From a virus, in the IMG/VR virus record IMGVR_UViG_3300037316_000032, positions 1 to 64,000 of that record: a stretch of 64,000 nt of DNA. One strand, given 5' to 3'. Positions 2,623-62,415 of this stretch are shown here, one piece after another (positions within the stretch are counted from its first letter, which is position 1; each line of letters begins with the position of its first letter). Both the position numbers and the translations under genes were made by a program. The notes below the pieces were generated by a model. The model had not been told where the DNA came from. It saw nothing but the letters and a program-made list of their open reading frames with translations, and did not search any database.

Positions 2623-2637
2623 TTACCGCGACGGTAA
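2623..2637. repeat. 15-bp palindrome TTACCGCGACGGTAA (site 1)
   Basis: Perfect 6-bp arms around CGA. The left arm supplies the TAA stop of the minus-strand gene 2623-3054, and the site lies 58 bp upstream of the start of the next minus-strand gene. One of 18 copies in the window. Confidence 0.9.
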
Positions 2638-3054
2638 TTTCGCCTGTCGCAGAAGTTTTTTTACGATACCCAGCAAAACCGGCACCAGGTCGAGCGGTCG
2701 CAAACCCGGATGGTCAAACTTGAACTGGAGGATCACGTTCTCCAGGTCGAACTCCAGCACGCGCAGAAGCGGCACCGGCTCGCGGAAGTGGAACACGTCC
2801 TCCTCCAACGGGGGCAAGGTGTCATGTTTCGACGTAAAATGGGGCCCAAAAGGCGTCGGCCCGAGCGCGTTGAACGGCCACGGCTTACCGGTCGGCGGCA
2901 AGTCGACGGGCAGTGGCTCGGGTGGCCTCGGCAGCGGGCGCAGAGGAGGCGCCTCCCGCATCTGGTTGGCTCGCCGGAGTTGGTCCAGCGTGCGCCGGCC
3001 GAATGGGATCACGTTGGTCCCGCGGCGATCATAGTAGTTTGTGTAGTTCGTCAT
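2623..3054 (-). CDS. hypothetical proline-rich protein
   Basis: A 143-residue protein with a basic N-terminus (YYDRRGTNVIPFGRRT), a Pro-rich linker (RPLPRPPEPLPVDLPP) and a hydrophobic C-terminal helical part. Its TAA stop is formed by the left arm of the palindrome at 2623-2637. It overlaps the stop of the upstream gene by four bases (start at 3054, upstream stop at 3051). No recognised domain. The Pro-rich linker suggests a structural or adaptor protein. Confidence 0.65.
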   Translation of the reverse strand: MTNYTNYYDRRGTNVIPFGRRTLDQLRRANQMREAPPLRPLPRPPEPLPVDLPPTGKPWPFNALGPTPFGPHFTSKHDTLPPLEEDVFHFREPVPLLRVLEFDLENVILQFKFDHPGLRPLDLVPVLLGIVKKLLRQAKLPSR

Positions 3055-3977
3055 GCTGGTCCTGTGTAGCCGGCAACATAGACCGACTTAAAACCCGCGG
3101 CGCCGGTGGGCCCCTGGTAGACAGTCTCTACCTCGCCGCCGTCATTGTCAAGTGATTGGTTGCCAAACCCAAAGGGTCCGGCTGGCCCCGTGGCTTGGAT
3201 GGTGACAGTACGGAACGTGTGGTCGCCCGCCACGGGAGATTGTATTCGGTAGCCCTTGGCACCTTTTATGGTGGCGGGTGGGGGCGGTGCAGCGGCGGGA
3301 ACCTGCAAGGCGTCGATCGTTGCAATGTCGCCGGCAGACGTATTACCAGCCGCCCAGACGTTCCACACCTGGCCGGTTTGAACAGCAGCCAAGGCCACGT
3401 ATTCAGACACCGTGCCTTCGTTGGACAACGAGTTGGACTGATACAAGCCGGTACAAGCCGGAGACACGTCGAAGCCGGCAGAGACAATCGGGTTGTCCGT
3501 AGTCTCGACGGCGAACACGAACGTATTCGGGGTCGTCGTAGAATAGGTCACATTATGGACTGTGCGGGCAGTATTGTTGACCTGAGTATGCGCCGGCAAC
3601 GAAACGTTTGGATCAAATGGATTGTTCAAGTCGCAGCCATTGACGCCGAAAGCCGTGAGGTTTTGATCCGTGACCGCACCAAAATTCGTGTATGACGCGA
3701 CGATATTTTTGGCCGACAGCGCGAGAGCAGCGTGCAACCACCACACCGAATGGATGAGCGGCAGACCGATGCTCGATAGCGTCTGGATATAACAGCGCTG
3801 CGTCATCGCAACGCCGTCGCACGTCACGCCCGAGACAGTCACACCGGCTTGGTTGGAATGAACGTCGACAATCGCAATGATGATATCGTCCGGGAGCGTC
3901 GTCGTCAGGACAGCCGTGGTGGTGCCAACAGCGTTGCTGACTGCATTGACTTTCCCGTCAAGGGTTGGCGCGGCCAT
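3051..3977 (-). CDS. putative virion/fibre protein with collagen-like segments
   Basis: Encodes 308 residues from the ATG at 3977, which overlaps the TAA stop of the Acb2-like gene (TAATG). The sequence is rich in Thr, Val and Asn and strongly predicted beta (for example VTVSGVTCDGVAMTQR). The C-terminal third carries Pro-rich and collagen-like pieces (ATGPAGPFGFG, YQGPTGAAG, and a terminal YTGPA). This looks like a surface or fibre-type protein, although it sits in the accessory cluster rather than among the structural genes. Exact role unknown. Confidence 0.65.
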   Translation of the reverse strand: MAAPTLDGKVNAVSNAVGTTTAVLTTTLPDDIIIAIVDVHSNQAGVTVSGVTCDGVAMTQRCYIQTLSSIGLPLIHSVWWLHAALALSAKNIVASYTNFGAVTDQNLTAFGVNGCDLNNPFDPNVSLPAHTQVNNTARTVHNVTYSTTTPNTFVFAVETTDNPIVSAGFDVSPACTGLYQSNSLSNEGTVSEYVALAAVQTGQVWNVWAAGNTSAGDIATIDALQVPAAAPPPPATIKGAKGYRIQSPVAGDHTFRTVTIQATGPAGPFGFGNQSLDNDGGEVETVYQGPTGAAGFKSVYVAGYTGPA

Positions 3978-4195: not shown

Positions 4196-4209
4196 ATCAC
4201 TCTCCAAGT

Positions 4210-4286
4210 TGGTCGGGGCGGTAGGATTTGAACCTACGGCCTGCTGGTCCCAAACCAGCCGCTCTGCCAGGCTGAGCTACGCCCTG
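4210..4286 (-). tRNA. tRNA-Pro (anticodon TGG)
   Basis: The minus strand folds into a full cloverleaf of 77 nt: a 7-bp acceptor (one A-C mismatch at pair 2-71), a D-arm starting GCTCAGCC, an anticodon stem GCTGG/CCAGC with loop TTTGGGA giving anticodon TGG, a 5-nt variable loop, a T-arm GTAGG-TTCAAAT-CCTAC, discriminator A and an encoded CCA end. It sits exactly between the stop of the gene at 4287-4472 and the ribosome site of the Acb2-like gene, so it is probably processed from the same transcript. It could support translation of the Pro-rich collagen-like proteins. Confidence 0.95.
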
Positions 4287-4472: not shown

Positions 4473-4501
4473 GAGAAACTCCAGGTTCCAGGTGTCCAAA
4501 A

Positions 4502-4530
4502 TTTGTATACAAACTTCGGACAGAAGTCAA
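4502..4530 (-). promoter_or_regulatory. sigma70-like promoter candidate
   Basis: On the minus strand, TTGACT (4530-4525) is followed after 17 bp by TACAAA (4507-4502). This would start transcription about 20-25 nt before the ATG at 4472 and drive the small gene, tRNA-Pro and the Acb2-like gene. It is inferred from consensus only. Confidence 0.4.
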
Positions 4531-4679
4531 GTGGGGTAGGCTCGCCGCGCGCACCAACCGTGGCCCTTTACGCTCGAACGCTTACACTATCGAGAAGCCC
4601 CCCGTTGGTCGGTGTGACCTTTATACCTTTAAAAAGGGTTAATGAGTTCAAAAAGTTGGGCTACAAAATTGCGAAGGGG

Positions 4680-4787: not shown

Positions 4788-4795
4788 TATCGTGG

Positions 4796-5643: not shown

Positions 5644-5764
5644 GCGCGATCGGCCATTAGCGTCAAGGCGCGCTGGTTCCTACCCCATAGTGCCAACGTC
5701 CCCCGATCTTAAAAAATGGGCGGCTCACTGGTACGGGCTTACAAGCTGGGAACCGGCGCAAAAT

Positions 5765-5798: not shown

Positions 5799-5996
5799 AT
5801 GACTACGAAAATCACACTGAAGCGTGTTGAAAACGCTGTCAGGCGTGAAATGTTTGGCCTAGATAACCCCGGCTTCTGCAAGGCTTGCGGCCATGAGCAA
5901 GAAGGCTGTGAGCCCGACATGGAAGGTGGAACCTGTGAAAGCTGTGGTGAACAGCAGGTCACTGGTGCTTCTAATTTGCTCATGGAAATGATATAA
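5799..5996 (+). CDS. small zinc-ribbon protein
   Basis: A 65-residue protein with ribosome site CAGGAG. Two CxxC knuckles (FCKACG at about residues 26-31 and CESCGE at about 46-51) would bind one zinc ion. Between them is an acidic loop. The layout (DNPGFCKACG, then CESCG, then a short helix LLMEMI) is, as far as I recall, common among small phage proteins of unknown role. It is the first gene of the rightward early train, immediately behind palindrome site 2. Confidence 0.7.
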   Translation: MTTKITLKRVENAVRREMFGLDNPGFCKACGHEQEGCEPDMEGGTCESCGEQQVTGASNLLMEMI

Positions 5997-9027: not shown

Positions 9028-9777
9028 ATGACCCAATCCACGATACCAAACGCATTGACGTTTGACGCTGTGAAAGCGTCAATGATAGAGCTTGGCGAAA
9101 TGGCCGGACAAGGCAAGGACACGCAAATCAAGGCGCTTATGAAAGTGTTGGAAGGTGCGTTCCACGGCAGCATTGATTTGCAGGCTGACAAGCACGGCAC
9201 TGATGTTGACGATTGCACAAAGCTGGCTGAAGCGTATGTGCAAGCTCAAAACAGCGCGACCGTGTTCGATGCCAAGGCAATGAACCAGCGCAAGCTGATC
9301 TCCACCTACCGGACCGTGACCAAACTAGGTCAATGGCCGAAAGGTGGCAACGGTGAACCGTTGGGAACGGCGAATAACCTGATCACCATGCGCCAGAAAA
9401 TGCGCGCCATCCCTGGTGAAATCAAGAAGCTGGATGATGCTGCCAACACGCTGCTGCGCTATGCACGCGCACAGCTCAAGCGTGACCAGCTCATTGACGA
9501 CAAGGAGCTGAAAACCTTCTGTTACAAGAAGGATAGCACGCTGCAAACGCCCAAGCAGATTATCGAAGGCGTGCGCAAGACACTCACAGCGTTGAAAGAT
9601 GGCAAGGCTGCGTCTGGTACGGCGCAGGATGCTTCCCAAGACATACGCGATGCTATTCGGAGCCTGACTGATCGGCTCAAGAAGATCGCGGACAAGCGTG
9701 GCGCTGCCAAAGCGCAGGCTGCGTTCAACGTGGTTGAGGATACGTCGATCCGTGCTTATCCGGTTAAGACCCAATAG
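9028..9777 (+). CDS. hypothetical early protein (249 aa)
   Basis: Strong ribosome site (AAGGAG) and ATG. The protein is almost entirely helical with many Lys/Asp/Gln heptads (IKALMKVLEGAFHGSIDL, MRQKMRAIPGEIKKLDD), consistent with an elongated or multimeric protein. No Walker, zinc or nuclease motif is visible. It is the largest product of the early small-gene train and lies directly before a zinc-finger-like gene. Function unknown. Confidence 0.7.
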   Translation: MTQSTIPNALTFDAVKASMIELGEMAGQGKDTQIKALMKVLEGAFHGSIDLQADKHGTDVDDCTKLAEAYVQAQNSATVFDAKAMNQRKLISTYRTVTKLGQWPKGGNGEPLGTANNLITMRQKMRAIPGEIKKLDDAANTLLRYARAQLKRDQLIDDKELKTFCYKKDSTLQTPKQIIEGVRKTLTALKDGKAASGTAQDASQDIRDAIRSLTDRLKKIADKRGAAKAQAAFNVVEDTSIRAYPVKTQ

Positions 9778-10272: not shown

Positions 10273-11415
10273 ATGAACTTACATGAAGCACAAAAGCAAA
10301 TCCGCATACTGACCCAAGCGGGCAATGCGATATTGCTGGAAGGAAGTTCTGGCCTTGGCAAATCAGCTATTTGTTTTGCCGAGTTTGAGCGAGCCAAAGC
10401 TCAAGGCGCTGCCAAGGGCGAAACATGGGGACTTGGCGTGGTGTTCGCTGCCACGCAAACGCCCCCTGATCTAATCGGCTATCAGTTCAAGGGCGAGCAT
10501 GATTTCGGGGACGGCAAGAAACTGACCGTCACAGAACCAAGCGTTCCCTTGTGGATGCTGAGCGTTCCCCACGGCGACGATCCTGGTGGCAAGCCAGCCT
10601 ATATGTACGACAAATTCTGGCTTGTGATCGAGGAATATGGACAGGGCGAGGCTGATGTAAAGCGCGCAATGGCCGAGATATTCCTGAATGGTGGCACAGC
10701 GCCGTGGTATCTGCCAGCAGGGAGTGTACGTGTTGGCTGTACCAACGTGGGCAGCCGATATGGCGTGACCAAGGACTTTGACTTCTGTATTGCTCGCAGG
10801 TCACGCATCAACATCACTGGCGATATCAACATCTTGCTGCCGTATCTGGACAAGCCATATGAAAAGCATGGCAAGGCGTGGCAGACAATGCCCGTGATGA
10901 AGTCTTGGGCTGCAACGCATCCTGAGATCGTGTTTGAGGCCGAGCCAAAGGAACAGGGGCCGTGGTGTATGCCTCGCACCCTTTGCGATGCTGACCGATA
11001 CCTGCAATGCGTCATGGCCGAGAATAACGGTGTGATCCCCACGGATGGCGGCACTATCGAAACGCTGTCGGGTATCATTGGCATGGCTGCTACGCAATCG
11101 CTGATCGGCCACTTGCAGTTCCGCTTGGAGCTGCCAAGCTATGCCGAGATCGTTGCTGATCCCGACAACACGCCAGTCCCCAAGAAGGCTGACCTGCTGT
11201 TGCTGATGGCGTATGAGCTTGCCGGGTATACGCAAATCCCGGACTTGGCAGCCTGCATTAAGTACGTGCAGCGCCTGCCCAAGGACATGGCTGTGACCTA
11301 CGTATCGTCCCTGCTGCGTCGGGACTACAAGAACATCATCAACACCCCCGCCATGCAGGGTTGGATCAACAAGAACGCTTCGCTGGTAAGCATCATCGCA
11401 TCGTTGTCACAATAA
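10273..11415 (+). CDS. MoxR-type AAA+ ATPase
   Basis: A 380-residue AAA+ protein with ribosome site AAGGAG. Walker A is GSSGLGKS (about residues 24-31), Walker B is WLVIEE (116-121), a sensor-1-like TNVGSR lies near 157-162 and an arginine-finger-like RRSR at 175-178. Proteins of this group act as ring chaperones that remodel or load partners carrying a VWA domain. A matching VWA-like gene is found two genes downstream (12345-13622), which supports the pairing. The C-terminal third is helical and unassigned. Sure about the ATPase fold, less sure about the cellular role. Confidence 0.85.
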   Translation: MNLHEAQKQIRILTQAGNAILLEGSSGLGKSAICFAEFERAKAQGAAKGETWGLGVVFAATQTPPDLIGYQFKGEHDFGDGKKLTVTEPSVPLWMLSVPHGDDPGGKPAYMYDKFWLVIEEYGQGEADVKRAMAEIFLNGGTAPWYLPAGSVRVGCTNVGSRYGVTKDFDFCIARRSRINITGDINILLPYLDKPYEKHGKAWQTMPVMKSWAATHPEIVFEAEPKEQGPWCMPRTLCDADRYLQCVMAENNGVIPTDGGTIETLSGIIGMAATQSLIGHLQFRLELPSYAEIVADPDNTPVPKKADLLLLMAYELAGYTQIPDLAACIKYVQRLPKDMAVTYVSSLLRRDYKNIINTPAMQGWINKNASLVSIIASLSQ

Positions 11416-11468
11416 AGGCGGATTTCGGTTGTAGGTGACGGATTGTAGATCGGCGGAACCTTCTACGT

Positions 11469-11483
11469 TTACCGTGACGGTAA
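11469..11483. repeat. 15-bp palindrome TTACCGTGACGGTAA (site 4)
   Basis: Perfect arms around TGA, located between the ATPase gene and the next gene. Its right end overlaps a possible but unsupported ATG at 11483. Confidence 0.9.
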
Positions 11484-11650
11484 TGAAAAACAAAACGGCA
11501 ATGCAATCGCGCACAGCGCGGCACTACAAACTAAGCGGGTTACTTGCTGATCCCGACACACTGGATAAGCTGGTAATCTGGCGCATGGGTGACATAAAAT
11601 ACAGACGGCGTACCCGCCGTGAGCAAGACGAGTTCATAAGGAGCGGATCA

Positions 11651-11947
11651 ATGCAACGCCAATTCACTATTGAGCTTAGGGTAGATTACGCAGACCCTGA
11701 GAAGAACGATGCAATGCGTACAGCATTGCAGGCTGCTGCAAGGCATGTCTACGCCACGGCAACGCTGCTGGCCGAGACTGTCAAGCCGCAGATAGCTATA
11801 TTTAGCGATGACTTCTTCGCTGGACATGAGCAGATCACGCTGCTGGAAGATACAATCCAAGCTGGCAAGGAACAGATCGGTGATACCAAAGAGGATGCAC
11901 CTAGCGATGAGCTTATCCAGGCCATGCGAGACAGTCTCATCAAGTGA
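11651..11947 (+). CDS. hypothetical phage protein (98 aa)
   Basis: The ATG at 11651 has an AAGGAGC ribosome site. An in-frame ATG at 11483 would add 56 residues but has no ribosome site. The sequence (QRQFTIELRVDYAD, then ALQAAARHVYATATLLAE, then QIAIFSDDFFAGHEQI) fits an alpha/beta protein that I recall as conserved in phages near MoxR-type ATPases, of unknown role. The acidic C-terminus ends in a helix. Confidence 0.65.
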   Translation: MQRQFTIELRVDYADPEKNDAMRTALQAAARHVYATATLLAETVKPQIAIFSDDFFAGHEQITLLEDTIQAGKEQIGDTKEDAPSDELIQAMRDSLIK

Positions 11948-12009
11948 ACCGGGCAATGACACGTATTCGAGTAGTCAACCGTCCACAGACATACCAATCA
12001 GGAGCTAAC

Positions 12010-12348
12010 ATGGACGTTACAAGGTTTCGGTCGTTTGCCGAGCGATACGTGATCGAGCGAGCAAGCACGTTTAAGAATGACACCGAAATGCAGGACGCTT
12101 GGAGCGCAGTAGAGCGAGCCAAGTCGATCTATAAGCATATCGAGAATGTGGCCAACGTAGAGAACGACAAGGATATGCGGGAAGAACACGCCACGCGCTC
12201 ACAGGGTATGCAGGCAACGCAAGGCCCACCGGGCGCTACTGGCATGACAGGGCCGAGCCAAACTATTGCGCGACACCCCATAGGCACCCGCGTTTTGGCG
12301 CCGCCCGCTAACAATTCACAAAGCTGGACAAGAAGGAACTCACCGTGA
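12010..12348 (+). CDS. hypothetical protein with internal collagen-like segment
   Basis: The ATG at 12010 has a CAGGAG ribosome site. The N-terminal 65 residues are helical (RFRSFAERYVIERASTFKND). A short collagen-like stretch (QGPPGATGMTGPS, about 75-87) precedes a polar tail. It ends in a GTGA overlap with the VWA-like gene. A collagen-like insert in an early gene is unusual because the others are in late or accessory genes. Confidence 0.55.
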   Translation: MDVTRFRSFAERYVIERASTFKNDTEMQDAWSAVERAKSIYKHIENVANVENDKDMREEHATRSQGMQATQGPPGATGMTGPSQTIARHPIGTRVLAPPANNSQSWTRRNSP

Positions 12349-13622
12349 CCGATACTCCCAAGCAAGCTCCCGAGATCGAGAAGATCGAGCCTTGTGGGCT
12401 TACGCCAGCGCAGAAGCAAAAGTGGGAAGATACCATGTCTCTGATGGCATGGACCGCCCCAGGCTTCCGGCACATATTCTACAAGCTGCTGGCAAACAAT
12501 AGTGGTGACTATGTTGCTGTGCCGACCAAGAGCATCCCTGTCGCGGCAACGGACGCCAAGAATATCCTGATCAACCCGGACACCTATTTCGAGTACGGGC
12601 TGACAGAGCGTGTGTTCATTGCGGGCCATGAGATCGTGCATAATATCTACGCAGACGTTGAACTACTGCACAGGTGCCAAGCCTCTGGCAAGGTGCCAAT
12701 GCACGACGGCTCTAGCCTGCCGTTCGACAACGAGGTAATGCAGCACTCTATGGACTATCGCATCAACGATCTGCTGGTCGATAGCAAGATTGGTACAGCG
12801 CCCAAGGGTTGTTTGCATGACAAGAAGCTGGCCGTGGCTAACGATAGCGTGCTGGACGTTTACAAGAAAGTCTACAAAAAGAAAAAGGACGATGGCACGT
12901 TGGGCAAGGGCGGATTTGATATCGTGCTGGCTCCCGGCAAGTCTACCGGGCAAACACCGTCCCAAGCCGCAGCGCAGCGCAATGCGCAGCAATGGGCTGT
13001 CGAGGTATCGGCAGCGCAAACGCTGGAACAAATCAGGACGCAAGGCAAGCTGGCTGGCTCACTGCAACGCATGTTCGCTGATATCCTGCAACCCAAGATA
13101 CCGTGGACTGAGCATATTAAGTCGATCTTCAATCGTCGCGTTGGTTCAGGCAGCTATAACTGGCGCAGGCCGGACAGGCGCTTCATTGTGCGCGACCTGT
13201 ATATGCCGTCCCGCTCCGGTCACGGTGCGGGCTGGCTGGTCATATGGGGCGACACATCGGGCAGCATTGGCGACGGCGAGCTTAACAGCTATCTGGGCGA
13301 GCTGGCTGGTATCATCGAGGACGTGCGCCCCAAGAGGCTGACTGTGATATGGTGCGATGCCAAGATACACTATGTCGATGAGTGCGAGGATGCTATGGAC
13401 TTGCATCGTATCAAATCGCGTGGCGTGGGTGGCAAGGGTGGCACTAGCGTTGATCCGGTCATGCGCTGGATTGCTGACAGTACTGAGAAGCCTGATATGT
13501 TCATTGGTTTCACGGATGGCTGTGTAACGTTTCCTGCAAAAGAGCCTGCGTTCCCTGTGATCTGGGCGGACGTGGGCGGCACTACGTACCCGTGGGGCGA
13601 GGTTGTAAGGATCAAGCCATGA
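12345..13622 (+). CDS. VWA-like/metallopeptidase-like partner of the MoxR ATPase
   Basis: A 425-residue protein starting at a GTG coupled to the previous stop. The N-terminal domain holds a zinc-peptidase-like HEIVH (95-99). The C-terminal domain holds a MIDAS-like DTSGS (303-307) and a downstream DGCVTFP segment, as in VWA-like proteins of the DUF2201 type. Such proteins are regularly paired with MoxR ATPases, which bind the VWA domain; here the ATPase gene is two genes upstream. The role in phages is unknown; remodelling of a host or phage complex is inferred. All five residues of the HExxH motif are intact. Confidence 0.8.
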   Translation: MTDTPKQAPEIEKIEPCGLTPAQKQKWEDTMSLMAWTAPGFRHIFYKLLANNSGDYVAVPTKSIPVAATDAKNILINPDTYFEYGLTERVFIAGHEIVHNIYADVELLHRCQASGKVPMHDGSSLPFDNEVMQHSMDYRINDLLVDSKIGTAPKGCLHDKKLAVANDSVLDVYKKVYKKKKDDGTLGKGGFDIVLAPGKSTGQTPSQAAAQRNAQQWAVEVSAAQTLEQIRTQGKLAGSLQRMFADILQPKIPWTEHIKSIFNRRVGSGSYNWRRPDRRFIVRDLYMPSRSGHGAGWLVIWGDTSGSIGDGELNSYLGELAGIIEDVRPKRLTVIWCDAKIHYVDECEDAMDLHRIKSRGVGGKGGTSVDPVMRWIADSTEKPDMFIGFTDGCVTFPAKEPAFPVIWADVGGTTYPWGEVVRIKP

Positions 13623-14041
13623 TAGGTGGCGTGCGCACAATACTGCTGCCTAATGGGACGCCATATCAGCGCACTCACGACTATCGTGGGCGTTGCCTGC
13701 TGTGCGGGCGCAAGCGGAGCAAGCAAGCCAAGAAGCCTTTCGTGGTCGCCATGACGCTACAAAAGGGCTGGCGCTTGATTGCGCGGCCCTTGAGCTATCG
13801 AGTGCAGACCCTGAAAATCCCGGTATGGCAGACTAATGGCAACCCGGTATGGACGGACGTTCAAAGGTTTCCGCGAACACGCAACGCATGGCTGGATGAC
13901 GAAATGATGTGCGCAGTGTCAATGCTGCATACCCGTGTACGCGAGTGGAAGGCGGGTATTGTTCCGTTGCCGCCCGAGCCGAAGCTGACAAGGGCGCAAA
14001 AGTTCATGCTGAAATTTTTGGAGTGGAAAGACCGCCTTTAA
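13619..14041 (+). CDS. hypothetical protein with N-terminal Cys pair
   Basis: Starts at an ATGA overlap and ends in a TAATG overlap. The 140-residue protein has one CxxC pair (GRCLLCGRKRSKQ) near residue 27, followed by a basic region and beta-rich core (IPVWQTNGNPVWTD), and ends in a basic helix. Possibly a single zinc half-ribbon, but a second Cys pair is not clear. Function unknown. Confidence 0.6.
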   Translation: MIGGVRTILLPNGTPYQRTHDYRGRCLLCGRKRSKQAKKPFVVAMTLQKGWRLIARPLSYRVQTLKIPVWQTNGNPVWTDVQRFPRTRNAWLDDEMMCAVSMLHTRVREWKAGIVPLPPEPKLTRAQKFMLKFLEWKDRL

Positions 14042-14397
14042 TGCCTTACCTGTCACGTAAAATAACGATGAACTGGCACGCGATCGCGACGGAAGCTGAT
14101 CTGCGTAAGGAAATCCTTATGCGGCTACAGCAACATTCGCGCGTTGCATGGTCGCATCGTATGTATGTTGGTCTACTGGCCGCTCACGGTGGCCCGCGTC
14201 GGTACACGATAGGGTTTAAGGGATGCAGCGATATAATTGGCCAGCTAACGAATGGCCAGCTTTTGGCTATCGAGGTAAAGACCGCTAACGCAGGCCCCAC
14301 AAAAGACCAGCAGGACTTTCTTGATCTTGTGAACAAAAATGGTGGAATAGGTTTTGTGGCGCGTTCCGCCGCAGATGTGAGCAGGAACATTCCCTAA
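14041..14397 (+). CDS. VRR-NUC nuclease
   Basis: A 118-residue protein whose second half matches the VRR-NUC variant of the PD-(D/E)XK fold: GCSDIIG (Asp64), then AIEVKTANAG (Glu78, Lys80) and TKDQQDFL (Gln90). These enzymes cut flaps, junctions or other branched DNA. The ATG at 14041 overlaps the previous TAA; another ATG at residue 10 is possible. It lies in the replication and recombination block. A second VRR-NUC protein is encoded at 21021-21320. Confidence 0.8.
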   Translation: MPYLSRKITMNWHAIATEADLRKEILMRLQQHSRVAWSHRMYVGLLAAHGGPRRYTIGFKGCSDIIGQLTNGQLLAIEVKTANAGPTKDQQDFLDLVNKNGGIGFVARSAADVSRNIP

Positions 14398-14481: not shown

Positions 14482-15183
14482 ATGCCGCGAAGCAAGAGCG
14501 TGTTAGGTGGACACCACCTGGCTGTTGCAAGGTCCAAGATCGAGAGCTTGTGCCAGCGGTCGATAAAGGTGCTGGCCCCGTTCGATCCTGCCTTGCAGAG
14601 TGTGTTGGGCTGGTGTTTTTCTAATGATACATTTAATACGTTGACACATGCGCACGGATTGGTGAAGATTAACGGGTACTATAGTGGGTTGTCCATGAGT
14701 GGCAGCTATAAAATAGCTGAGGGCACAAACCTAGAATTGGAGTTTGAGTCGGTTAATATGCTGGCACCCAAAGAGGAAATGTTTATACTACATGAGCAAG
14801 GGCTAGGTGTCCCGTTGCTGGCTGCAATAGAGGAAATTAGGGCAATCAAGAGCAAGTTTGATCTGGCCGAGCATGTGCTGGACTGGCTGGACAGGCATGT
14901 GACGGCAGGGGCTATGCGCTACTACTGGCCGACCGTGCTATCCCTGGCCCCGCAAGCACCTACACTGGCGGGCGAGATACCGTCCAGGCATAACACACCT
15001 GATAACATTGCGCCGTTCCTGCCCTTCATCAGGGAGAGTGCTGGCACCATTGCGTCGGCCCTAATGCTGGCTGAAGACGTGGAGATCAACCCCAAGAAGG
15101 GAATGGCCCTGGTACTGTCGGGTGGTGGTCAGAAGATTGGCGAGGACGTTCTAAACGGCGTCAAACGAACGGTCCACATATAG
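14482..15183 (+). CDS. hypothetical protein (233 aa)
   Basis: Ribosome site GAGGAGAG. A soluble alpha/beta protein without an obvious catalytic motif. It shows a helical N-terminal part with CQRSIKVLAPFDP, a Gly/Ser beta region (INGYYSGLSMSGSYKI), and a C-terminal SGGGQKIG loop. First gene after palindrome site 5 and upstream of endonuclease VII and DNA polymerase. Function not recognised. Confidence 0.65.
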   Translation: MPRSKSVLGGHHLAVARSKIESLCQRSIKVLAPFDPALQSVLGWCFSNDTFNTLTHAHGLVKINGYYSGLSMSGSYKIAEGTNLELEFESVNMLAPKEEMFILHEQGLGVPLLAAIEEIRAIKSKFDLAEHVLDWLDRHVTAGAMRYYWPTVLSLAPQAPTLAGEIPSRHNTPDNIAPFLPFIRESAGTIASALMLAEDVEINPKKGMALVLSGGGQKIGEDVLNGVKRTVHI

Positions 15184-20768: not shown

Positions 20769-21055
20769 CGCCCGAAAAAAACAAAGTGCGCTGCGCCGAG
20801 TGTGATTGGTTCGGCAAGGCCGAGCAGATCGACCGGGTAAAGGACCCCTATCCCGGCAGCGACATGGTGTGGGATATCTGTCCTCGATGCCGCAACGCCG
20901 AGTGCGTCCATGCAGTATGCGACGAGCCCGGCTGTACCCGTGAAGTAAGCTGTGGAGCGCCGTCTGAGGATGGCTATCGCTCGACCTGTAGTGAACACTC
21001 AATGTGGAGGAAAGAGCAACGTGACGCCCGAAGGCAAAGTCAAAGCGAAGGTTAA
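20765..21055 (+). CDS. zinc-ribbon protein (96 aa)
   Basis: Starts by ATGA overlap. Cys pairs at CAECDWFG, ICPRCRN, then CVHAVCDEPGC and TCSEHS suggest two small zinc sites. Ends in a charged tail. Probably binds nucleic acid or protein; role unknown. The next gene starts within its end. Confidence 0.6.
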   Translation: MTPEKNKVRCAECDWFGKAEQIDRVKDPYPGSDMVWDICPRCRNAECVHAVCDEPGCTREVSCGAPSEDGYRSTCSEHSMWRKEQRDARRQSQSEG

Positions 21056-21320
21056 CGCCGCGCTTAAACCACTTATTGAGAAGGGGCTGGTATGGAAGTT
21101 CATGCCAGTCCAGTCGGGGTACGGAACCCCGGCCTTGGACTATTTGCTATGCGTTAATGGCCGTTTCATAGTGATCGAAACTAAGGAAACGGGAAAGAAG
21201 CTGACCGGGCGCCAAACGACCACAGCCTGTGCTATGATAAATGCAGGTGCTGTTGTGTTCGTGGTCGATGGGCCAATTTCACTTGACCGAGCAATAGGAA
21301 AAATACTCAAATGTCTTTAG
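21021..21320 (+). CDS. VRR-NUC-type nuclease (second copy)
   Basis: A GTG at 21021 is preceded by GGAGGAAAGAG. The 99-residue protein shows the compact PD-(D/E)XK layout: SGYGTPALDY (Asp40), VIETKETG (Glu53, Lys55) and TGRQ (Gln65), as in VRR-NUC enzymes that cut branched DNA. It lacks the N-terminal extension of the copy at 14041-14397. Overlaps both neighbours. Directly upstream of a small helical gene and the SNF2-like helicase, fitting a repair or recombination unit. Confidence 0.75.
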   Translation: MTPEGKVKAKVNAALKPLIEKGLVWKFMPVQSGYGTPALDYLLCVNGRFIVIETKETGKKLTGRQTTTACAMINAGAVVFVVDGPISLDRAIGKILKCL

Positions 21321-24166: not shown

Positions 24167-24181
24167 TTACCGTGACGGTAA
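24167..24181. repeat. 15-bp palindrome TTACCGTGACGGTAA (site 11)
   Basis: Perfect arms around TGA, one base after the stop at 24165 and 20 bp before the ATG at 24202, directly ahead of its ribosome site. Confidence 0.9.
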
Positions 24182-24201
24182 TCAACCCCCAGGAGAACCC
24201 G

Positions 24202-36881: not shown

Positions 36882-36882
36882 A

Positions 36883-48800: not shown

Positions 48801-48937
48801 GTCGTGTCGACGGTCGCGCTTCCCTGGTCGACCGTGTATACAACGCTGGTCAAGACTTCGCCATCAGCCAACCAGTCACAATCGACTGCGTGCCGCCTGC
48901 GGTCCCCCACTTTTTGATGGTGACGACCTAGGTTCAT
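45824..48937 (-). CDS. large collagen-like tail fibre protein (1037 aa)
   Basis: The ATG at 48937 overlaps the previous TGA (TGATG) after a GGAGGG site. The N-terminal 110 residues resemble the 92-residue protein at 44998-45276. Next come two collagen-like blocks (about 115-200 and 275-410) with many Gly-Pro-Thr and Gly-Asn-Thr triplets. The C-terminal part contains repeats of the [22 protein letters not shown] type, a beta-helix-like fibre motif. Two copies are near identical at the DNA level (see 46177-46524). Likely the main receptor-binding or side fibre. Confidence 0.75.
46177..46524 (-). repeat. 174-bp tandem duplication in the fibre gene
   Basis: Two adjacent 174-bp copies (46177-46350 and 46351-46524). 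Their first about 118 bases match perfectly and the remainder diverges slightly. Each encodes a 58-residue fibre repeat. The length is a multiple of three, so the frame is kept. Confidence 0.85.
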
Positions 48938-49119
48938 CACACCCTCCGGACATACAGAAGGGTGTCGTCCTCCGGGTCAATGTTAATGCAAGACGGCGCT
49001 TCTGCGGCAACTATGATTGTGGCAGGCTGATCGGGTGGCATGTCCAACGTGAAACATTCAGCGCCGAGGCTTATTTCGGAGCTGTCGGCTTGGACATGGA
49101 TTTCCTCGTCCTCGTACAC
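48937..49119 (-). CDS. small acidic protein (60 aa)
   Basis: A GTG at 49119 starts a 60-residue acidic, beta-rich protein ([18 protein letters not shown], ending TLLYVRRV). Its TGA is shared with the ATG of the large fibre gene. Possibly a small fibre-assembly or neck protein. No family recognised. Confidence 0.5.
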
Positions 49120-49129
49120 CTTGTCACCT

Positions 49130-49630
49130 TTACGTACCGAGCGTTCCAGATTTGATCAGGTCATTGATCAGACCCATAATGGTTTGCGCGCATTGCTGCG
49201 TCGTCGCGGTGGATGTATCCAACGTCGCGCGATTGATTACACCAGTCCAATTATGCCAGCCAGTTTGTGGCCCAGTAGGACCGCTAGAACGACCTGTCGG
49301 GCCCGTGGCGCCCGTGTTACCTGTACCCGGCCCAGTTGGGCCTGTTACACCGGCAGCGCCAGCAATCCCGGTATCACCAGCAACGCCAGGTGATCCGTCA
49401 GTACCCGCGGGACCAGTGGGACCTGGCGTACCGGTTGGACCTTGGGCGCCGGTCGTCCCCGTGGCCCCGCCGCCCGTTGGCCCCGTGCCAAACGGACCGG
49501 TCGGACCGGTTGGGCCAGGGCCAGTCGGGCCAGTGCTACCAGTCGGGCCTCCAGCAGGCCCGGTTGGGCCGCCAAGCAAGATGATCGGCAGAGCCGAGAC
49601 AGGTGATGGTGAAACATCGGTGACTGGCAT
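49130..49630 (-). CDS. collagen-like protein (166 aa)
   Basis: After a short N-terminal segment ([11 protein letters not shown]), about 100 residues are Gly-X-Y triplets, mostly Gly-Pro-Thr, Gly-Ala-Thr and Gly-Pro-Gly. The C-terminal 45 residues ([17 protein letters not shown]) form a small helical domain that could trimerise. Typical of a short fibre or decoration protein. Confidence 0.75.
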
Positions 49631-50000: not shown

Positions 50001-50635
50001 TAGAATGTCACCGGGTTGCCAACGCTAGTGCCGCCGCGTTGATTACGGGTACGATACGTCTGTGGGAAATTCCAAGACTGGGAACCGAACGTGTTGCGGC
50101 GGAACGTGGCGATCTTCGCCAGCCCAATACCGTCCTTGAATTGCGCGAGATCAAACACGCCACCCTTCATATCCGAGTAGCTTTTGTTCATCTGGCCTTT
50201 CATCTTGCCAAGCAGGCCGCTGAGGATCGTGCGGCCATACAACGGCAGAACCCAGTCGGGCACATCCGGAGTCGCTTGCTTATCTACCGGAAACTTGACG
50301 TTCTTGATGACGACCACTGAATAAGTCTGCGCGATGTTCACTGGGTACATCAGATGCAAGACGCCTACTTCCACCATGAGAGCCGGAACGGGAACTGTGT
50401 TGAGATCGAGAACGCCACCTAGCCGAATAATCTGCCCGCTGCTTGGCACAATGTTGTAGTCCACCACGCCGGGGATAGCCATAACTGAAATGGTTTCCAC
50501 CCAGGAGTCCGAGTCGTTGAAGAACTCATGGAACACATCGAACAGCTCGCCCTTGAGGCCAGCATCCGACGAGCCCGGAAGTTTGGTCCGCGCTTGGTCG
50601 AGCAGATGATCGAGATCAACCTGACGAGCGCTCAT
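50000..50635 (-). CDS. head-tail adaptor-type protein (211 aa)
   Basis: N-terminal helices (VDLDHLLDQARTKLPG, ELFDVFHEFFND) and a beta central part (VDYNIVPSSGQIIRLGG) match proteins that I recall directly behind the DUF6682 adaptor in podovirus-like genomes. The C-terminus is basic (RTRNQRGGTSVG). Likely part of the connector or neck. Starts overlapping the adaptor stop. Confidence 0.65.
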   Translation of the reverse strand: MSARQVDLDHLLDQARTKLPGSSDAGLKGELFDVFHEFFNDSDSWVETISVMAIPGVVDYNIVPSSGQIIRLGGVLDLNTVPVPALMVEVGVLHLMYPVNIAQTYSVVVIKNVKFPVDKQATPDVPDWVLPLYGRTILSGLLGKMKGQMNKSYSDMKGGVFDLAQFKDGIGLAKIATFRRNTFGSQSWNFPQTYRTRNQRGGTSVGNPVTF

Positions 50636-51042
50636 TTTCGCACTCCAGCACCGGGCGTAGCGCCCATGATTGGGATCGGTTTAATACCAGTCAACATTTC
50701 CGTGAACATCGCATTAAAGGATGTGGCCCGCTGATCCTGAACGTCTTCCTGGTCACGCATGATCGCATGAGAGGCGCCGGCAAAAACGAAGGCCAACCGG
50801 AACATCGGCTCGATATTCACTTCAGTATTATCTACGGTTTTGAAGCTGGGGACCTTCGAATGATGGGAGTACACAAACAGGTCGGGGCGCACGCGCCGCC
50901 CTTCAAGCAGCGCCACGTTGAAGGCTGTCAGCAACGAGGGGTCATCGTACCGATACGGCTGCACCACATCTTGGAGGAGCGTCCGGATATCGGTGACGTA
51001 ATCCTGCACGGTTTCTAGGGTGGTCTGCGGCTGCACGGGCAA
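50632..51042 (-). CDS. DUF6682-like phage adaptor protein (136 aa)
   Basis: Helical protein with the pattern TVQDYVTDIRTLLQDVVQP, YRYDDPSLLTAFNVALLEG, RRVRPDLFV, which I recall as DUF6682, a probable connector or head-completion protein. It is the first gene after the coat terminator, ten bases downstream of palindrome site 16, which therefore lies in its leader. Confidence 0.75.
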   Translation of the reverse strand: MPVQPQTTLETVQDYVTDIRTLLQDVVQPYRYDDPSLLTAFNVALLEGRRVRPDLFVYSHHSKVPSFKTVDNTEVNIEPMFRLAFVFAGASHAIMRDQEDVQDQRATSFNAMFTEMLTGIKPIPIMGATPGAGVRK

Positions 51043-53360: not shown

Positions 53361-53609
53361 TCAGGGGGACAGCGGTGTGGGCTTGGTTGGTTTCACTTTA
53401 TCGCACTCACGTAGAACACGCAGTATAGCCCGGCATTGCTGAGCGCGACCTTGCATCACCAGGACCGTATCGGGGCCGGCTTCCGTTACCGCCACGGTAA
53501 CTTCGTCCGTGTACTCCCCAAAAACCTGCAGACAATGCTCAAACCCCTCCGGGTTCGCATTGCGTAGTCCGAGGAAAGAGTTGCTTAAAAGTTCAACGTT
53601 TGTAGCCAC
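53361..53609 (-). CDS. hypothetical small head-region protein (82 aa)
   Basis: A GTG at 53609 with GGAGG five bases upstream. Alpha/beta, with HCLQVFGEYTDEVTVAVTE and a final helix RAQQCRAILRVLRECD. Palindrome site 17 sits inside. Located between the scaffold and other small head genes. Function unknown. Confidence 0.6.
   Translation of the reverse strand: MATNVELLSNSFLGLRNANPEGFEHCLQVFGEYTDEVTVAVTEAGPDTVLVMQGRAQQCRAILRVLRECDKVKPTKPTPLSP
53486..53500. repeat. 15-bp palindrome TTACCGCCACGGTAA (site 17)
   Basis: Perfect arms around CCA. The minus strand reads Val-Thr-Val-Ala-Val-Thr within the 82-residue gene. Confidence 0.9.
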
Positions 53610-58485: not shown

Positions 58486-59136
58486 TCATCCTTGCGAAAC
58501 ACGCAAGGCCCCTGTTGCACCTGCCGCGGCGAATGTTCCGGTGGCGCTATAAACTGCGCCAACCACATGCGGATCATTGGTCGGTGGCGTGTACGAAGTG
58601 TTGAGGACTGGGCCAGCCGGGCCTTGATATCCGGTAGGTCCGGTTGCACCGGTCGCGCCGAGTGCGCCGTTCGCGCCAGTCACGCCGATACCGCCTGCGG
58701 GACCAGAAGGACCAGAAGGACCAGTAACTCCCGTGGCTGCGGCTGGACCAGTAACACCAACAGCACCGTATGGCCCCTGATCTGGCCCTATAGCGCCGGT
58801 TGGACCAGACGGCCCAGTAGTACCAGTCGCGCCAGTATTGCCAACTGCACCAGCCGGGCCTGGATAGCCAACGTTTCCGGTAGGACCAGTAGGGCCAGCC
58901 GGTAAAGCGTTCGGCCCTTGCGGACCCGCAGTGCCGGCCGGGCCGGTAAAGCCTGTCGTGCCAGCCGGGCCAGTGGCGCCGGTTGCCGCACCAGTAGGAC
59001 CAGTGGCCCCAGGCGGACCTTGAAGGCCCGAAGGGCCCTGAATGGCATCAACGACTTGTTTCAGGACCGACCCTTCGATGTTGTCATCATAAGTGTCGAG
59101 AGCGCCCAGCGGGCCGGGGCTTGGAATGTTCGCCAT
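58486..59136 (-). CDS. collagen-like protein (216 aa), paralogue 1
   Basis: An N-terminal anchor domain (YDDNIEGSVLKQVVDAIQG) leads into about 110 residues of Gly-X-Y repeats and a C-terminal beta segment with PPTNDPHVVGAVY. The same anchor and C-terminal motifs occur in the paralogue at 59149-59751. It shares the leader AGGGGTTTG before the ATG. Probably a trimeric fibre or whisker protein. Next to the glycan module. Confidence 0.75.
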   Translation of the reverse strand: MANIPSPGPLGALDTYDDNIEGSVLKQVVDAIQGPSGLQGPPGATGPTGAATGATGPAGTTGFTGPAGTAGPQGPNALPAGPTGPTGNVGYPGPAGAVGNTGATGTTGPSGPTGAIGPDQGPYGAVGVTGPAAATGVTGPSGPSGPAGGIGVTGANGALGATGATGPTGYQGPAGPVLNTSYTPPTNDPHVVGAVYSATGTFAAAGATGALRVSQG

Positions 59137-59148
59137 GTCAAACCCCTA

Positions 59149-59751
59149 TTATGGACCGCCTGAAATTGTCAGCACGCCGCCGTTGCTCCAGACCTGGCCA
59201 GTGACGCCAGGATTGGAAGTCGGCGGAATGAACAAGGCGGGATTGTTACCTGTCGGGCCTGTTATGCCTTGGGCACCGTTATTACCTTGAGCGCCGGCAG
59301 CACCAGCGTTACCTTGCGGGCCAGTTGGACCAGCAGGGCCAGTGACGCCAGTCGGGCCGGCTGGGCCGGTTGCGGCACCAGTAGGACCGGTCGCACCTTG
59401 CAGACCTGTTACGCCGCTCGATTGACCAGCAGGGCCTTGTGGACCCTGGACACCTGCATAACCTTGCGCGCCAACCGGACCTTGCGGACCTGTGGCACCA
59501 GTGGCGCTAGTGGCACCAGCGGGACCACCTGGGCCTGTTGGGCCAACGGCGGGGCCAGTGGCACCAGTCACACCAGTCGGACCAGTCGAACCTGTGGAGG
59601 CGCCGGCTGCGCCAGTCGGGCCGGCTGAACCTGTCGGGCCAGCAGCGCCAGTCACGCCACCGGTGGGACCTGCATTGATAAAGTCCACGACCTGTTTCAG
59701 AACAGGACCAATTTGGTTGCGATCATAATTGTTTGAGGACAAGATCGTCAT
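59149..59751 (-). CDS. collagen-like protein (200 aa), paralogue 2
   Basis: Anchor ([20 protein letters not shown]), about 120 residues of Gly-X-Y triplets rich in Gly-Pro-Thr, Gly-Ala-Thr and Gly-Pro-Gln, and a C-terminal motif [17 protein letters not shown]. The leader before the ATG is the same AATAGGGGTTTG as in paralogue 1, so a duplication is likely. Confidence 0.75.
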
Positions 59752-59763
59752 GGCAAACCCCTA

Positions 59764-59961
59764 TTACGGTCCTGTCGGACCAGTTGCACCCGCCGTACCA
59801 GTCGGGCCAGCAGGCCCCGTTGGTCCACCCGCACCAGCATCGGCGTTCAAGATGAGAACAATGTCTCGAAGGATCGAGCCAATCGCGTTTACGTCCGGCC
59901 GTTCCGGAACAGGAAGCGGAAGGGTCGGCATATAGTTCGGATCGGTTGCGCCTGTCGGCAT
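59764..59961 (-). CDS. short collagen-like protein (65 aa), paralogue 3
   Basis: The ATG at 59961 has a GGAG site. The anchor (VNAIGSILRDIVLILNADAG) is followed by only about 20 residues of Gly-X-Y ([13 protein letters not shown]) and no C-terminal head. It looks like a trimmed version of paralogues 1 and 2, either a functional short whisker base or a degraded copy. Confidence 0.6.
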   Translation of the reverse strand: MPTGATDPNYMPTLPLPVPERPDVNAIGSILRDIVLILNADAGAGGPTGPAGPTGTAGATGPTGP

Positions 59962-60011
59962 GGTGAACTCCAAATCTGTAGTTGGTCTATCTGCTATTCC
60001 TTACGAACTCC

Positions 60012-62282
60012 TTAACCGACCCCACCATGAACCGGCAAAGCGTTCGGCCCCTTCATATTGCCCGTAAGCGCGGTGGTCGGGCCCATCTGGTGGCCCGAAA
60101 TGCGTGATGGTTGAGAGCCTTGCGCCTGGGCCGAGGCAGTGGCCATATCCAGTCCTCCGGTGGATGCGGGTCCCTGGGCTCCCTCGGGCGTGCCAATATG
60201 AGCAGGCGGACCTTCCGGCATGTGGGCGCGCGCGGCCAGTACACCGGCTGTCAGTTCGGTGGCGATGCGCTTAACACCCGCGTCGACGCCGGCCTGGACA
60301 GCCTTCTGGATCGCTTCGTCCACGCCGCCTTGCTGCTGTTGCTGCTGTTGCTGTGCTTCCATTTTCTCGATCACATCTTCGGGCGGCACAATGTCGCTGC
60401 CCATACCAATCGTCGCGGCGATAGACCGGATGATATTGGCGCGACCCTTGAGCCCGATGATCTTCATGTCGACAGGGTTCTGCGTGGCCTGCGCAAACTC
60501 GATCTGGCGCTGGCGCTGTGTCTCGCGCTGGATGGCTACGTTGACACCCTGGACGGTTATCTTCTCCTCGCCGGTGAGCAAGCCGCTCGTATCCGTGAGC
60601 ATGATCAAGTCGCCCAACTGCATGAGGGCCGTTTCCAGCACGTCACGGTCTATATTGGCGCTAACAGTCTGCAAAATCTTACTGGCGTTGCCCATTAACA
60701 TCGCAAGGCCAGACGCGGTACGCCCAGCCCCGCTGCCCGCTTGTCCACCTACGTATTTTGGTATGGCGGAAACGTCGTCCGAAATACTTACAAACTCCTG
60801 GAACACGGAGATCAGTTGTTGCGCGTTCGACTGCGGCTGGAAGAACGTGATCGGTAGCGATTTGTTGTCGCCTACCGGATCGTTGCGCACATGCCATCGT
60901 TTCCACGGGTACATATCCTCCCCATTTTCCTCCGGCGACAGACGAGAGTCGTTGACCACGACCTGCGGACCCGACGCGATGCTGAGATTGTTGATAAGGC
61001 TGCGCAGCGTGCTGTTGGCCGCGTCCTGCAAGTCCGAGAGCAGATCGGTCAGTCCATTTCCAATGGGCGTACCAGGTACTTTTTCGAATGATGTAATGAA
61101 GTACGGGTGGCGCTGGCGCGGCGACGGCGACAAATGCGCCTTGATAACGTGACTACCCACAACCCAAGCCTGAATGGAATAATCACGCAGTTCGTCAGGA
61201 ACTGCAAGGCCATACTCCTGAAGGACACGTCCTTGAACATTGCCATTGAACTCCATCATCGAGATCAAGCCTGACCGGTTCCAGGCGGGATTTTCGCGGC
61301 TCTCCAACACGGCACGCTCGGCGTCCGTGGTATCCCAGTTGTCGTACAGGCCGCCGCGGCCATACTCATCCAAGACCGCTTTTACTTCGTCTTGGTTGTA
61401 GCCCGGCAGATCGAGCAGATCATTCAGCTCGGCGCGCGTGATGCGCAGCTTCTCGATCACGTTTGCGTTTTCGATATCAGCGACGCCGGGCGTAAACCAT
61501 AGGTCGAACGGCGAGACACGGTTCCATGTAAGTGTTGGCTGTTGCACAACAGTAGGCTGTCCACCCCCTTCGGGCCAGACCACCGCAGGTATGACTTTAA
61601 CCACCGGGCCCTTGAGGCAGGCGAACGGAAAAATAGGGAGATCGACAAGGAACTCTGCGAGCGCATGATAGAACCCTCCTTCACGCAATAGCCCCTCGAT
61701 CTTGTCTTCGCTGTCGCGGGCCTGCTCTACTGCTTTCTTTTTCGCTGCTTCCTTCGCGCTCTCCAACAGCGCGCGCTTGCGCTCGGCGGTATCTGATGGG
61801 TCAGGCGGCTTACCCTGTTGGTGCTGAGTGACTTGCTGCGCCTCGGACTGCATCAACTGGTCGATGTTCTGAAGGATGTTCTGCGGAATGTCCGGGTCGG
61901 CGGACGGCCGGATGGCCCACGGCCGATCTTCCCCGAGGTACACGTCACGCAAAAGTGAACTGGCGGCGCGGCACTTCTGGGCGATCAGGCGGGCATAGAT
62001 TTCGCTGCCATTGAACTTCTTCAAGTCCTGGAGCTTCTGAGGATCATATTGTCCATTAAACGTCCGCAGAGCCGATAACAGGCGCTCAGACCACCCGTTC
62101 ACCGTGTTGCGGTGGTTGCGGAAAATCTCGAACTGCCCTTTAATGTAGCCCGCCAGCGGCGTCACGTCCGGCTCGGCAGGCTGCGCGGCAGCGGCCTTAT
62201 CAGTGGCTTGCTGCTGGAGCTGCTGTTCGAGGGCGGCGGGCGGCACCACGGAGATAACGCCAGATTGACCAAGGTCTGCCAT
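60012..62282 (-). CDS. portal protein (756 aa)
   Basis: Start at the ATG at 62282 (MADLGQSGVISVV) or a GTG at 62318. A podovirus-type portal: N-terminal crown part after a Gln-rich stretch, clip and wing regions in the middle (VSPFDLWFTPGVADIEN, WNRSGLISMMEFNG), a conserved segment near QSNAQQLISVFQEF, and a C-terminal region with a Gln run (QQQQQQQQGG). It would form the DNA-entry vertex and bind the terminase. First of the leftward structural genes. Confidence 0.82.
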   Translation of the reverse strand: MADLGQSGVISVVPPAALEQQLQQQATDKAAAAQPAEPDVTPLAGYIKGQFEIFRNHRNTVNGWSERLLSALRTFNGQYDPQKLQDLKKFNGSEIYARLIAQKCRAASSLLRDVYLGEDRPWAIRPSADPDIPQNILQNIDQLMQSEAQQVTQHQQGKPPDPSDTAERKRALLESAKEAAKKKAVEQARDSEDKIEGLLREGGFYHALAEFLVDLPIFPFACLKGPVVKVIPAVVWPEGGGQPTVVQQPTLTWNRVSPFDLWFTPGVADIENANVIEKLRITRAELNDLLDLPGYNQDEVKAVLDEYGRGGLYDNWDTTDAERAVLESRENPAWNRSGLISMMEFNGNVQGRVLQEYGLAVPDELRDYSIQAWVVGSHVIKAHLSPSPRQRHPYFITSFEKVPGTPIGNGLTDLLSDLQDAANSTLRSLINNLSIASGPQVVVNDSRLSPEENGEDMYPWKRWHVRNDPVGDNKSLPITFFQPQSNAQQLISVFQEFVSISDDVSAIPKYVGGQAGSGAGRTASGLAMLMGNASKILQTVSANIDRDVLETALMQLGDLIMLTDTSGLLTGEEKITVQGVNVAIQRETQRQRQIEFAQATQNPVDMKIIGLKGRANIIRSIAATIGMGSDIVPPEDVIEKMEAQQQQQQQQGGVDEAIQKAVQAGVDAGVKRIATELTAGVLAARAHMPEGPPAHIGTPEGAQGPASTGGLDMATASAQAQGSQPSRISGHQMGPTTALTGNMKGPNALPVHGGVG

Positions 62283-62415
62283 GAATGTCCCGGATGAAAA
62301 ATGATGCGCTCCAGGCACGCTACCTGCTACCCGCTAACAATTTCTTAAGATATTTGACTTGCTTTTTTATTACCTTCACGGTAAAAGGGGGGCATCCTCC
62401 TGGGAAGAAAGACCA
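62283..62415. promoter_or_regulatory. divergent region between portal and terminase genes
   Basis: About 130 bp separate the leftward portal gene from the rightward terminase genes. It contains an AT-rich segment around 62340-62370 (including TTGACT) and palindrome site 18. Divergent promoters are expected here; no confident -10/-35 pair could be chosen. Confidence 0.4.
62370..62384. repeat. 15-bp palindrome TTACCTTCACGGTAA (site 18, one mismatch)
   Basis: Left arm is TTACCT. Located 31 bp before the ATG at 62416 in the divergent portal/terminase gap. Confidence 0.75.

Follow-up and report, generated by a model that had tools for sequence, protein, structure and literature searches.

A family of dispersed palindromes co-inherited with an early gene cassette in a group of phages

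The first 64,000 nucleotides of the IMG/VR virus record IMGVR_UViG_3300037316_000032 (hereafter the window) carry 18 copies of a 15-bp palindrome, TTACCG-N3-CGGTAA, dispersed over a phage genome. Sequence comparison with related phages establishes that these sites recur at conserved positions, that they are present or absent together with a cassette of early genes (A, B, C, E and F; Table 1), and that their motif changes from phage to phage. On balance, we are inclined to read the palindromes as the sites of a phage protein that is inherited with the cassette, most likely the product of gene A, and that would control transcription at fixed points of the genome. The window phage encodes an SU10-type portal, a family A DNA polymerase, an SNF2-like helicase and a lysozyme, and is therefore probably podovirus-like. 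A megablast search with 24 kb of it against 50,697 phage records gave no match; by terminase, its nearest neighbors in these records are the Rhizobium phages TM3_14A, TM27A, TM27B and TM29 (47.6 percent identity). The whole record is 66,558 bp long, and the 2,558 bases outside the window hold no further site.

All 18 coordinates listed in the initial annotation are correct, as is its division of the copies into 15 perfect ones and three with one mismatch (16476, 21611 and 62370). At 45063 there is a nineteenth match, probably a chance one, with two mismatches. In dinucleotide shuffles, matches with up to two mismatches averaged 1.65 (at most 5 in 100 shuffles) and perfect copies averaged 0.01, as opposed to 15 in the window, which bears out the earlier view that the sites are far above chance. 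Together with the positional conservation described below, the shuffles rule out chance or coding bias as their source. Conservation is limited to exactly 15 bp, and the flanks of the sites are not conserved. The central triplet is mostly Y-N-R (Y, pyrimidine; R, purine), with a Y as the first base in 17 of 18 sites and an R as the last base in all 18; this rule is itself reverse-complement symmetric. With genes called by homology, 11 of the 18 sites fall within genes and seven outside. Three of the eleven (11469, 24167 and 62370) sit at gene starts and may be intergenic if the true start codon is a later one; for gene C this may be the ATG at 11483. The initial description of intergenic sites placed shortly before start codons holds for, e.g., 5765, 10237 and 14443.

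The relatives used for comparison are 22 records of 43–69 kb, found by polymerase and portal protein scans (the latter taking in the best 80 of 177 loci). They are environmental contigs that may be chimeric or incomplete, they are not independent samples of one another, and their genes were called by homology. Motif variants were identified by a motif-free search for spaced palindromes. The palindrome family is present in 18 of the 23 records, the window phage included, and absent from five (G004, G007, G019, G021 and G022). Sixteen of the 18 carry TTACCG-N3-CGGTAA (one of them with a different center), one carries a TTACGG and one a TTACAG form. With up to one mismatch allowed, TTACCG-N3-CGGTAA occurs in 11–25 copies in 15 of the 22 relatives. 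In G003 the site is GTTACCG-N3-CGGTAAC with a center that is mostly RNY, in G005 it is TTACGG-N3-CCGTAA (18 perfect copies), and in G020 it is GTTACAG-N3-CTGTAAC (six perfect copies and further ones with mismatches). G011 and G012 have looser sites, in which TTACC arms number 18 and 17, and TTACCG arms 9 and 10, respectively. Spacers of two to four bases occur. The common core, TTAC-N7-GTAA, is found 10–25 times in each of the 18 site-bearing records vs 0–4 times in the five site-less ones. Motifs differ even between G005 and G017, which share 83.7 percent core-protein identity.

When every open reading frame (ORF) of the window phage was compared with the relatives, the early block of genes A, B, C, E and F was found to track the sites: the genomes with sites have these genes, and all five without sites lack them. 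Gene D (11944–12348) is not universal. In all 21 informative records, the cassette is present where there are sites and absent where there are none (16 with both, five with neither, none discordant); two fragments without the polA/cassette region (G015 and G016) were dropped, and G002, which starts within gene E, keeps E and F. Four of the five site-less records span the stretch from the winged-helix gene to polA, in which the cassette has its place; the fifth (G019) has no polA homolog. In a tree of four core proteins, some nodes of which are weakly supported, presence and absence change four times jointly by parsimony, which is close to the mean of 4.7 for random labels. Thus, sites and cassette come and go together in a manner that relatedness does not explain. 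A scan of seven ORFs in the cassette-less relatives gave no clear substitute gene.

The sites recur at the same gene boundaries and at the same positions within genes, a positive outcome of the comparison with related phages that the initial annotation had called for. Of the 366 sites in the 18 motif-bearing genomes, 132 lie outside coding sequence, as opposed to 76 expected by area (genes called by homology only). The gene at 24172–25296 has a site upstream in 13 of 17 genomes by script and in a fourteenth (G005) by eye, gene F has one in 9 of 16, and homologs of gene C have one ahead of them in 5 of 15 by script, a count that leaves out the window's own gene C site because the longest called ORF starts before it. 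Sites in polA lie mostly at relative positions 0.11–0.14, 0.48–0.50 and 0.84–0.85. Seven relatives hold a site at 0.84–0.85, like the one at 17154 in the window, and in a codon alignment the positions of this group match exactly; in the middle group, the sites of G000, G003, G011 and G012 coincide and those of G001, G002, G009 and G020 do not. The gene at 53361–53609 has an internal site in 12 of 15 genomes at a relative position of 0.47–0.58. Its codons read GTT ACC GTG GCG GTA ACG in the window and GTT ACG GTG GCC GTA ACC in G005, so that silent changes, which keep the peptide VTVAVT, convert TTACCG/CGGTAA into TTACGG/CCGTAA. Of the 23 sites compared between G005 and its closest relative, G017, nine are mappable and four of these are co-located (0.09 expected), so that some sites were switched in place and others turned over. 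In six genomes whose block limits are clean, the early block is the denser one, with 59 sites in 115 kb vs 32 sites in 197 kb of the late block; the pooled values for 11 genomes, among them five whose late block runs on into the early one, are 0.547 and 0.305 per kb. The smallest distance between sites is at least 412 bp, except for one pair in G012 that is 69 bp apart.

The association extends beyond these relatives. A profile scan for gene A gave 26 loci, several of them already in the relative set. All seven new records that were searched whole contain 7–15 TTAC-N7-GTAA sites each, and five other new loci, for which partial DNA was searched, contain 1–7. Two of the seven, which have identical DNA at gene A (L198 and L201), show a further form, TTACTG-N3-CAGTAA. 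The cultured Rhizobium phage TM3_14A has homologs of genes A, B, C and E and 46 matches to TTAC-N7-GTAA or TTAC-N8-GTAA with the consensus GTTACCT-N4-AGGTAAC, other spacers giving 0–1 matches. This phage probably stems from a study of Rhizobium phages from Tepoztlan (PMC8245606), in which a search by phage name did not turn it up. An out-of-sample set of 22 contigs was made up of 21 of the 22 new contigs from an ATPase scan (L240, 4.3 kb long, was left out) and L206. In 14 of the 22, the top palindrome has a TTAC, TACC or ACTAC/ACTAT core and exceeds all 60 simulations; in L251, it reaches P 0.033 (all P values are uncorrected for the 22 tests); in five (L214, L216, L217, L234 and L247), it falls short of P 0.05; and in two (L212 and L249), it is not of the TTAC/ACTAC type. 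The most distant forms, TTACGAC-N1-GTCGTAA in L250 and CACTAC-N2-GTAGTG in L237, show how far the apparent specificity wanders.

The four N4-like phages N4, LUZ7, TR2 and pVa5 have homologs of the AAA+ and VWA proteins but no homolog of A, C or F, and 50 kb of each showed no palindrome family that exceeded the simulations. TR2 has six TTAC-N7-GTAA matches vs up to four for neighboring spacers, and its top palindrome stays within the simulated range. The ATPase and VWA genes alone thus do not go with the sites, and the pair was rejected as their sufficient cause. A bacterial or prophage origin was likewise set aside, since two peptide patterns for gene A, which could miss distant copies, gave no match in genome_contigs (84,980 species).

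These comparisons suggest gene A as the best candidate for the reader. In a predicted helix of its product (residues 85–101), Q87 and S92 are invariant in 21 sequences taken as TTACCG-type, including those of G011 and G012, which are only about 35 percent identical. In five phages with other forms of the site, Q33 is changed in four, Q87 in four and S92 in three, and Q87 and/or S92 in all five. L195, which has a mixture of TTACCG and looser sites, was assigned to neither group. As regards columns kept in four TTACCG controls and changed in at least three variants, A has 6 out of 69, C has 5 out of 32, the AAA+ protein 2 out of 147, the VWA protein 5 out of 170 and F none out of 18. A different binder had been put forward in the initial annotation, namely the protein encoded at 1196–1789. 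It was discarded, being found in 12 of 14 TTACCG relatives (both misses are fragments), in all three with other forms and in all five site-less ones, and having a recognition helix that is alike in TTACCG, TTACGG, TTACAG and site-less phages. The OmpR-type winged-helix protein of 1196–1843 is conserved in relatives with and without sites.

Several observations weigh against gene A as the reader or against transcription as the output. By column counts, gene C covaries with the motif as well as gene A does (one C column by gaps), and within A, the window of residues 129–140 contrasts as strongly as the helix window 85–96. In L195, S92 is replaced by alanine, and three of the TTACCG-type references (L181, L186 and L192) are short contigs with one perfect site each. 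In L219, L220, L238 and L250, a search of the 10 kb ahead of the ATPase gene did not reveal gene A. Gene A has no solved fold relative on which a DNA-binding fold could rest: in profile searches with A, F and C, no solved structure reached an E value below 0.16, and in fold searches, neither A nor F had a PDB match at E 0.001. VIA-align Z scores for A do not exceed 5.8 and are within the stated noise for helical proteins, the matches in BFVD at E 0.001 are two uncharacterised phage proteins, and Pfam gives a sub-threshold match to EAD4 (E 0.004, 18.1 bits vs 27). The late block holds 32 of 118 sites, about a quarter, in the six genomes with clean limits. Finally, no integrase was seen among the part of the window ORFs that was scanned, and the sole regulator seen, that of 1196–1843, does not follow the sites, so that the lysogeny logic of a repressor with dispersed sites is missing.

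It is rather doubtful that gene C, gene F or an unrecognised partner in the cassette reads the site in place of A, an alternative that would fit any output. Gene C is tied to the sites and covaries, yet it was undetected in L212, L213 and L252, which have gene A and 6, 7 and 31 TTAC-N7-GTAA or TTAC-N8-GTAA matches, respectively (a weak argument, C being small and diverged); gene F is undetected in TM3_14A and has no covarying column. Regarding the output, the AAA+ and VWA proteins could act on DNA at the sites in genome handling (replication, segregation, condensation or packaging) instead of transcription. The sites are rather evenly spread, the chance of a random placement as even lying below 0.5 in every one of the 18 genomes and below 0.05 in seven of them; many are intragenic, and their density is higher in the block of polA, helicase and primase. 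However, positions fixed at particular gene boundaries and codons go beyond the need of a density function, and five relatives manage without sites and cassette, which makes such a role the less likely one in our judgement.

A host regulator or nucleoid protein might bind the sites in the manner of CtrA, which, in passages of a published account (PMC9437464), binds and regulates some Alphaproteobacteria phages through TTAA-N7-TTAA, a motif with the same spacing of the outer tetramers as TTAC-N7-GTAA. This is very unlikely because close relatives such as G005 and G017 differ in motif and site-less relatives are without the cassette, the match between sites and phage cassette being complete in the informative records; furthermore, the window phage has two TTAA-N7-TTAA vs 20 TTAC-N7-GTAA. 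Of the initial proposal of a genome-wide operator for a dimeric regulator of phage or host, the phage side points in the right direction and the host side is unlikely. An equally improbable idea is that the palindromes are RNA hairpins (antitermination, leader or stability elements) or N4-type DNA hairpin promoters. They do have a six-base stem and a three-base loop, and several lie just ahead of a ribosome site. Yet among 63 one-mismatch sites within genes, 13 have a G-T and 21 an A-C pair at the mismatch when read on the sense strand. An RNA stem would show a G-U preference, so this rules against an RNA hairpin, including the translation-leader hairpin suggested initially, and points to DNA rather than RNA. 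The symmetry of the central triplet rule, the varying spacers and the presence of sites in genes of both strands also disagree with a hairpin. By its sequence properties, the palindrome behaves as a site in double-stranded DNA.

In the explanation that we prefer, a phage-encoded, sequence-specific reader of double-stranded DNA would be inherited with the AAA+ ATPase and the VWA protein. We infer that two copies of the gene A product would recognise TTAC and about two inner bases per arm, and that the AAA+/VWA machine would perhaps load or remove the reader. Bound at spaced, fixed points, the reader would control transcription in a stoperator-like manner, mostly of early and replication genes, and a drift of specificity among phages would let each of them address its own DNA. 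The use of the system to the phage, likewise inferred, could go further, and we put this forward tentatively: a reader of undescribed fold and a CobS/CobT-like engine may form an ATPase-coupled address system, by which the phage would distinguish its own genome, with about 20–46 palindromes, from host or competitor DNA. Reader and many sites would then change together phage by phage, much like immunity types.

Table 1. Cassette genes and palindromic sites of the window (pLDDT, predicted local distance difference test)
Feature	Position	Strand	Description
Gene A	9028–9777	+	249 aa; all-helical model, pLDDT 89; candidate site reader
Gene B	10273–11415	+	AAA+ ATPase; phrog_1297 'ATPase'; no Pfam match
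Gene C	11435–11947	+	Small cassette protein
Gene E	12345–13622	+	Metallopeptidase-like and VWA-like; Pfam DUF2201_N, DUF2201; phrog_1314
Gene F	14482–15183	+	233 aa; fast evolving; pLDDT 88.5
Site TTACCGCGACGGTAA	2623–2637		Perfect
Site TTACCGTCACGGTAA	5765–5779		Ends 19 bp ahead of ATG of ORF 5799–5996
Site TTACCGCGACGGTAA	10237–10251		Ends 21 bp ahead of ATG of AAA+ gene
Site TTACCGTGACGGTAA	11469–11483		Start of gene C
Site TTACCGTCACGGTAA	14443–14457		Ends 24 bp ahead of ATG of gene F
Site TTACCTTGACGGTAA	16476–16490		One mismatch; within polA
Site TTACCGCTACGGTAA	17154–17168		Within polA, relative position 0.85
Site TTACCGGGACGGTAA	18737–18751
Site TTACCGCGACGGTAA	19949–19963
Site TTACCGCGGTGGTAA	21611–21625		One mismatch; within helicase gene
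Site TTACCGTGACGGTAA	24167–24181		Start of gene 24172–25296
Site TTACCGCCACGGTAA	24998–25012		Within gene 24172–25296
Site TTACCGCGGCGGTAA	28297–28311		Within gene 25302–28412
Site TTACCGCCACGGTAA	35801–35815		Within late gene 34638–36935
Site TTACCGTGGCGGTAA	41909–41923		Within late gene 39216–42206
Site TTACCGTGACGGTAA	51052–51066		Directly upstream of minus-strand gene 50632–51042
Site TTACCGCCACGGTAA	53486–53500		Within late gene 53361–53609
Site TTACCTTCACGGTAA	62370–62384		One mismatch; past portal gene start (62318), at called start (62359) of divergent gene

The window has an AAA+ ATPase gene near a VWA gene (phrog_1297, phrog_1314, DUF2201), a pairing of the CobS/CobT type. Homologs of gene B in phage records carry the name MoxR-like ATPase, and we read gene E as CobT-like. 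In N4-like phages, the VWA homologs bear the annotation 'HNH endonuclease', and a gene at 42239–45322 of L174 (MN988472), which matches the primase/helicase-like DUF927 gene of the window by position only, is annotated 'putative integrase'; both annotations look doubtful. Two small endonuclease- or Holliday-junction-resolvase-like proteins are encoded near the cassette (13909–14397 and 20952–21320). Upstream of polA, the site-less relatives G004 and G007 encode a 547-aa protein beside a phrog_4191 peptidase-like protein (L102:7687–10732 and L114:13986–17047). Elsewhere in the window there are a tRNA-Pro (TGG) gene on the minus strand (4210–4286), a 30-bp imperfect palindrome at 4493–4522, TGTCCAAAATTTGTATACAAACTTCGGACA, with arms that are 90 percent complementary, which is unrelated to the 15-bp motif and a possible operator, and blocks of collagen-like Gly-X-Y repeats in late genes (47700–49580 and 58500–59820).

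Short palindromes that are dispersed over a replicon and read by one protein are familiar from the parS, matS and SlmA sites. The sites described here resemble these in their dispersal and shortness and differ in sequence and linked genes; no ParB-like match was found in Pfam for ten window proteins scanned. The virion RNA polymerase system of N4 uses a few hairpin promoters at the early end of the genome and a giant virion RNA polymerase, whereas the sites here cover the whole genome. The largest protein of the window (1759 aa) has no Pfam or PHROG match, polymerase motifs not having been searched for. CtrA sites, by the passages cited above (PMC9437464), share the two tetramers spaced by seven bases but have another sequence and are gathered in gap and end regions, whereas the palindromes are spread genome-wide, tied to a cassette and variable between close phages.

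The nearest known kind are the stoperators of Cluster A mycobacteriophages (L5, Bxb1 and Trixie), and the analogy drawn in the initial annotation pointed in the right direction. As described in parts of one study (PMC6550527), stoperators number up to about 30 short sites per genome, some of them in genes and some syntenic, with motifs that drift with the binding protein; their core is 13 bp long, most of them share one orientation, and a lysogeny repressor binds them. The sites reported here are likewise present in tens of dispersed copies, but they are palindromic and not asymmetric, and their cassette includes an AAA+ ATPase and a VWA protein. Stoperator specificity follows the binding protein; here, the motif variants are real and the covariation with gene A is suggestive, with C covarying too. 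Given the palindromic form and the fact that no lysogeny repressor was found in the ORFs scanned, we do not file the system as stoperators. Literature searches outside subscription sources gave no such combination of sites and cassette among the matches listed.

Both the AAA+ and the VWA protein have homologs in N4-like phages; the four such phages tested differ in that neither genes A, C and F nor dispersed palindromes were found in them. N4 genes 24 and 25 appear in part of one source as core genes listed as 'Unknown' and 'vWFA domain' (PMC4193335), and viral CobST/CobS–CobT was interpreted as a cobalamin helper in passages of another (PMC8651126). The link to DNA sites suggests a role other than that of a cobalamin helper for the pair in this group of phages.

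To our knowledge, the best-known example of control sites dispersed in this manner comes from a single group of temperate mycobacteriophages. The palindromes would represent a second such system that relies on different machinery; it occurs in uncultured phages and also in a Rhizobium phage that is in culture, which makes it testable at the bench. The function of a core phage gene pair, AAA+ plus VWA, becomes testable as well, and the address system, if true, would be the first clue to the role of the widespread N4 gp24/gp25-type pair. The relatives may also offer a natural experiment on how the specificity of a protein and that of its roughly twenty target sites shift jointly.

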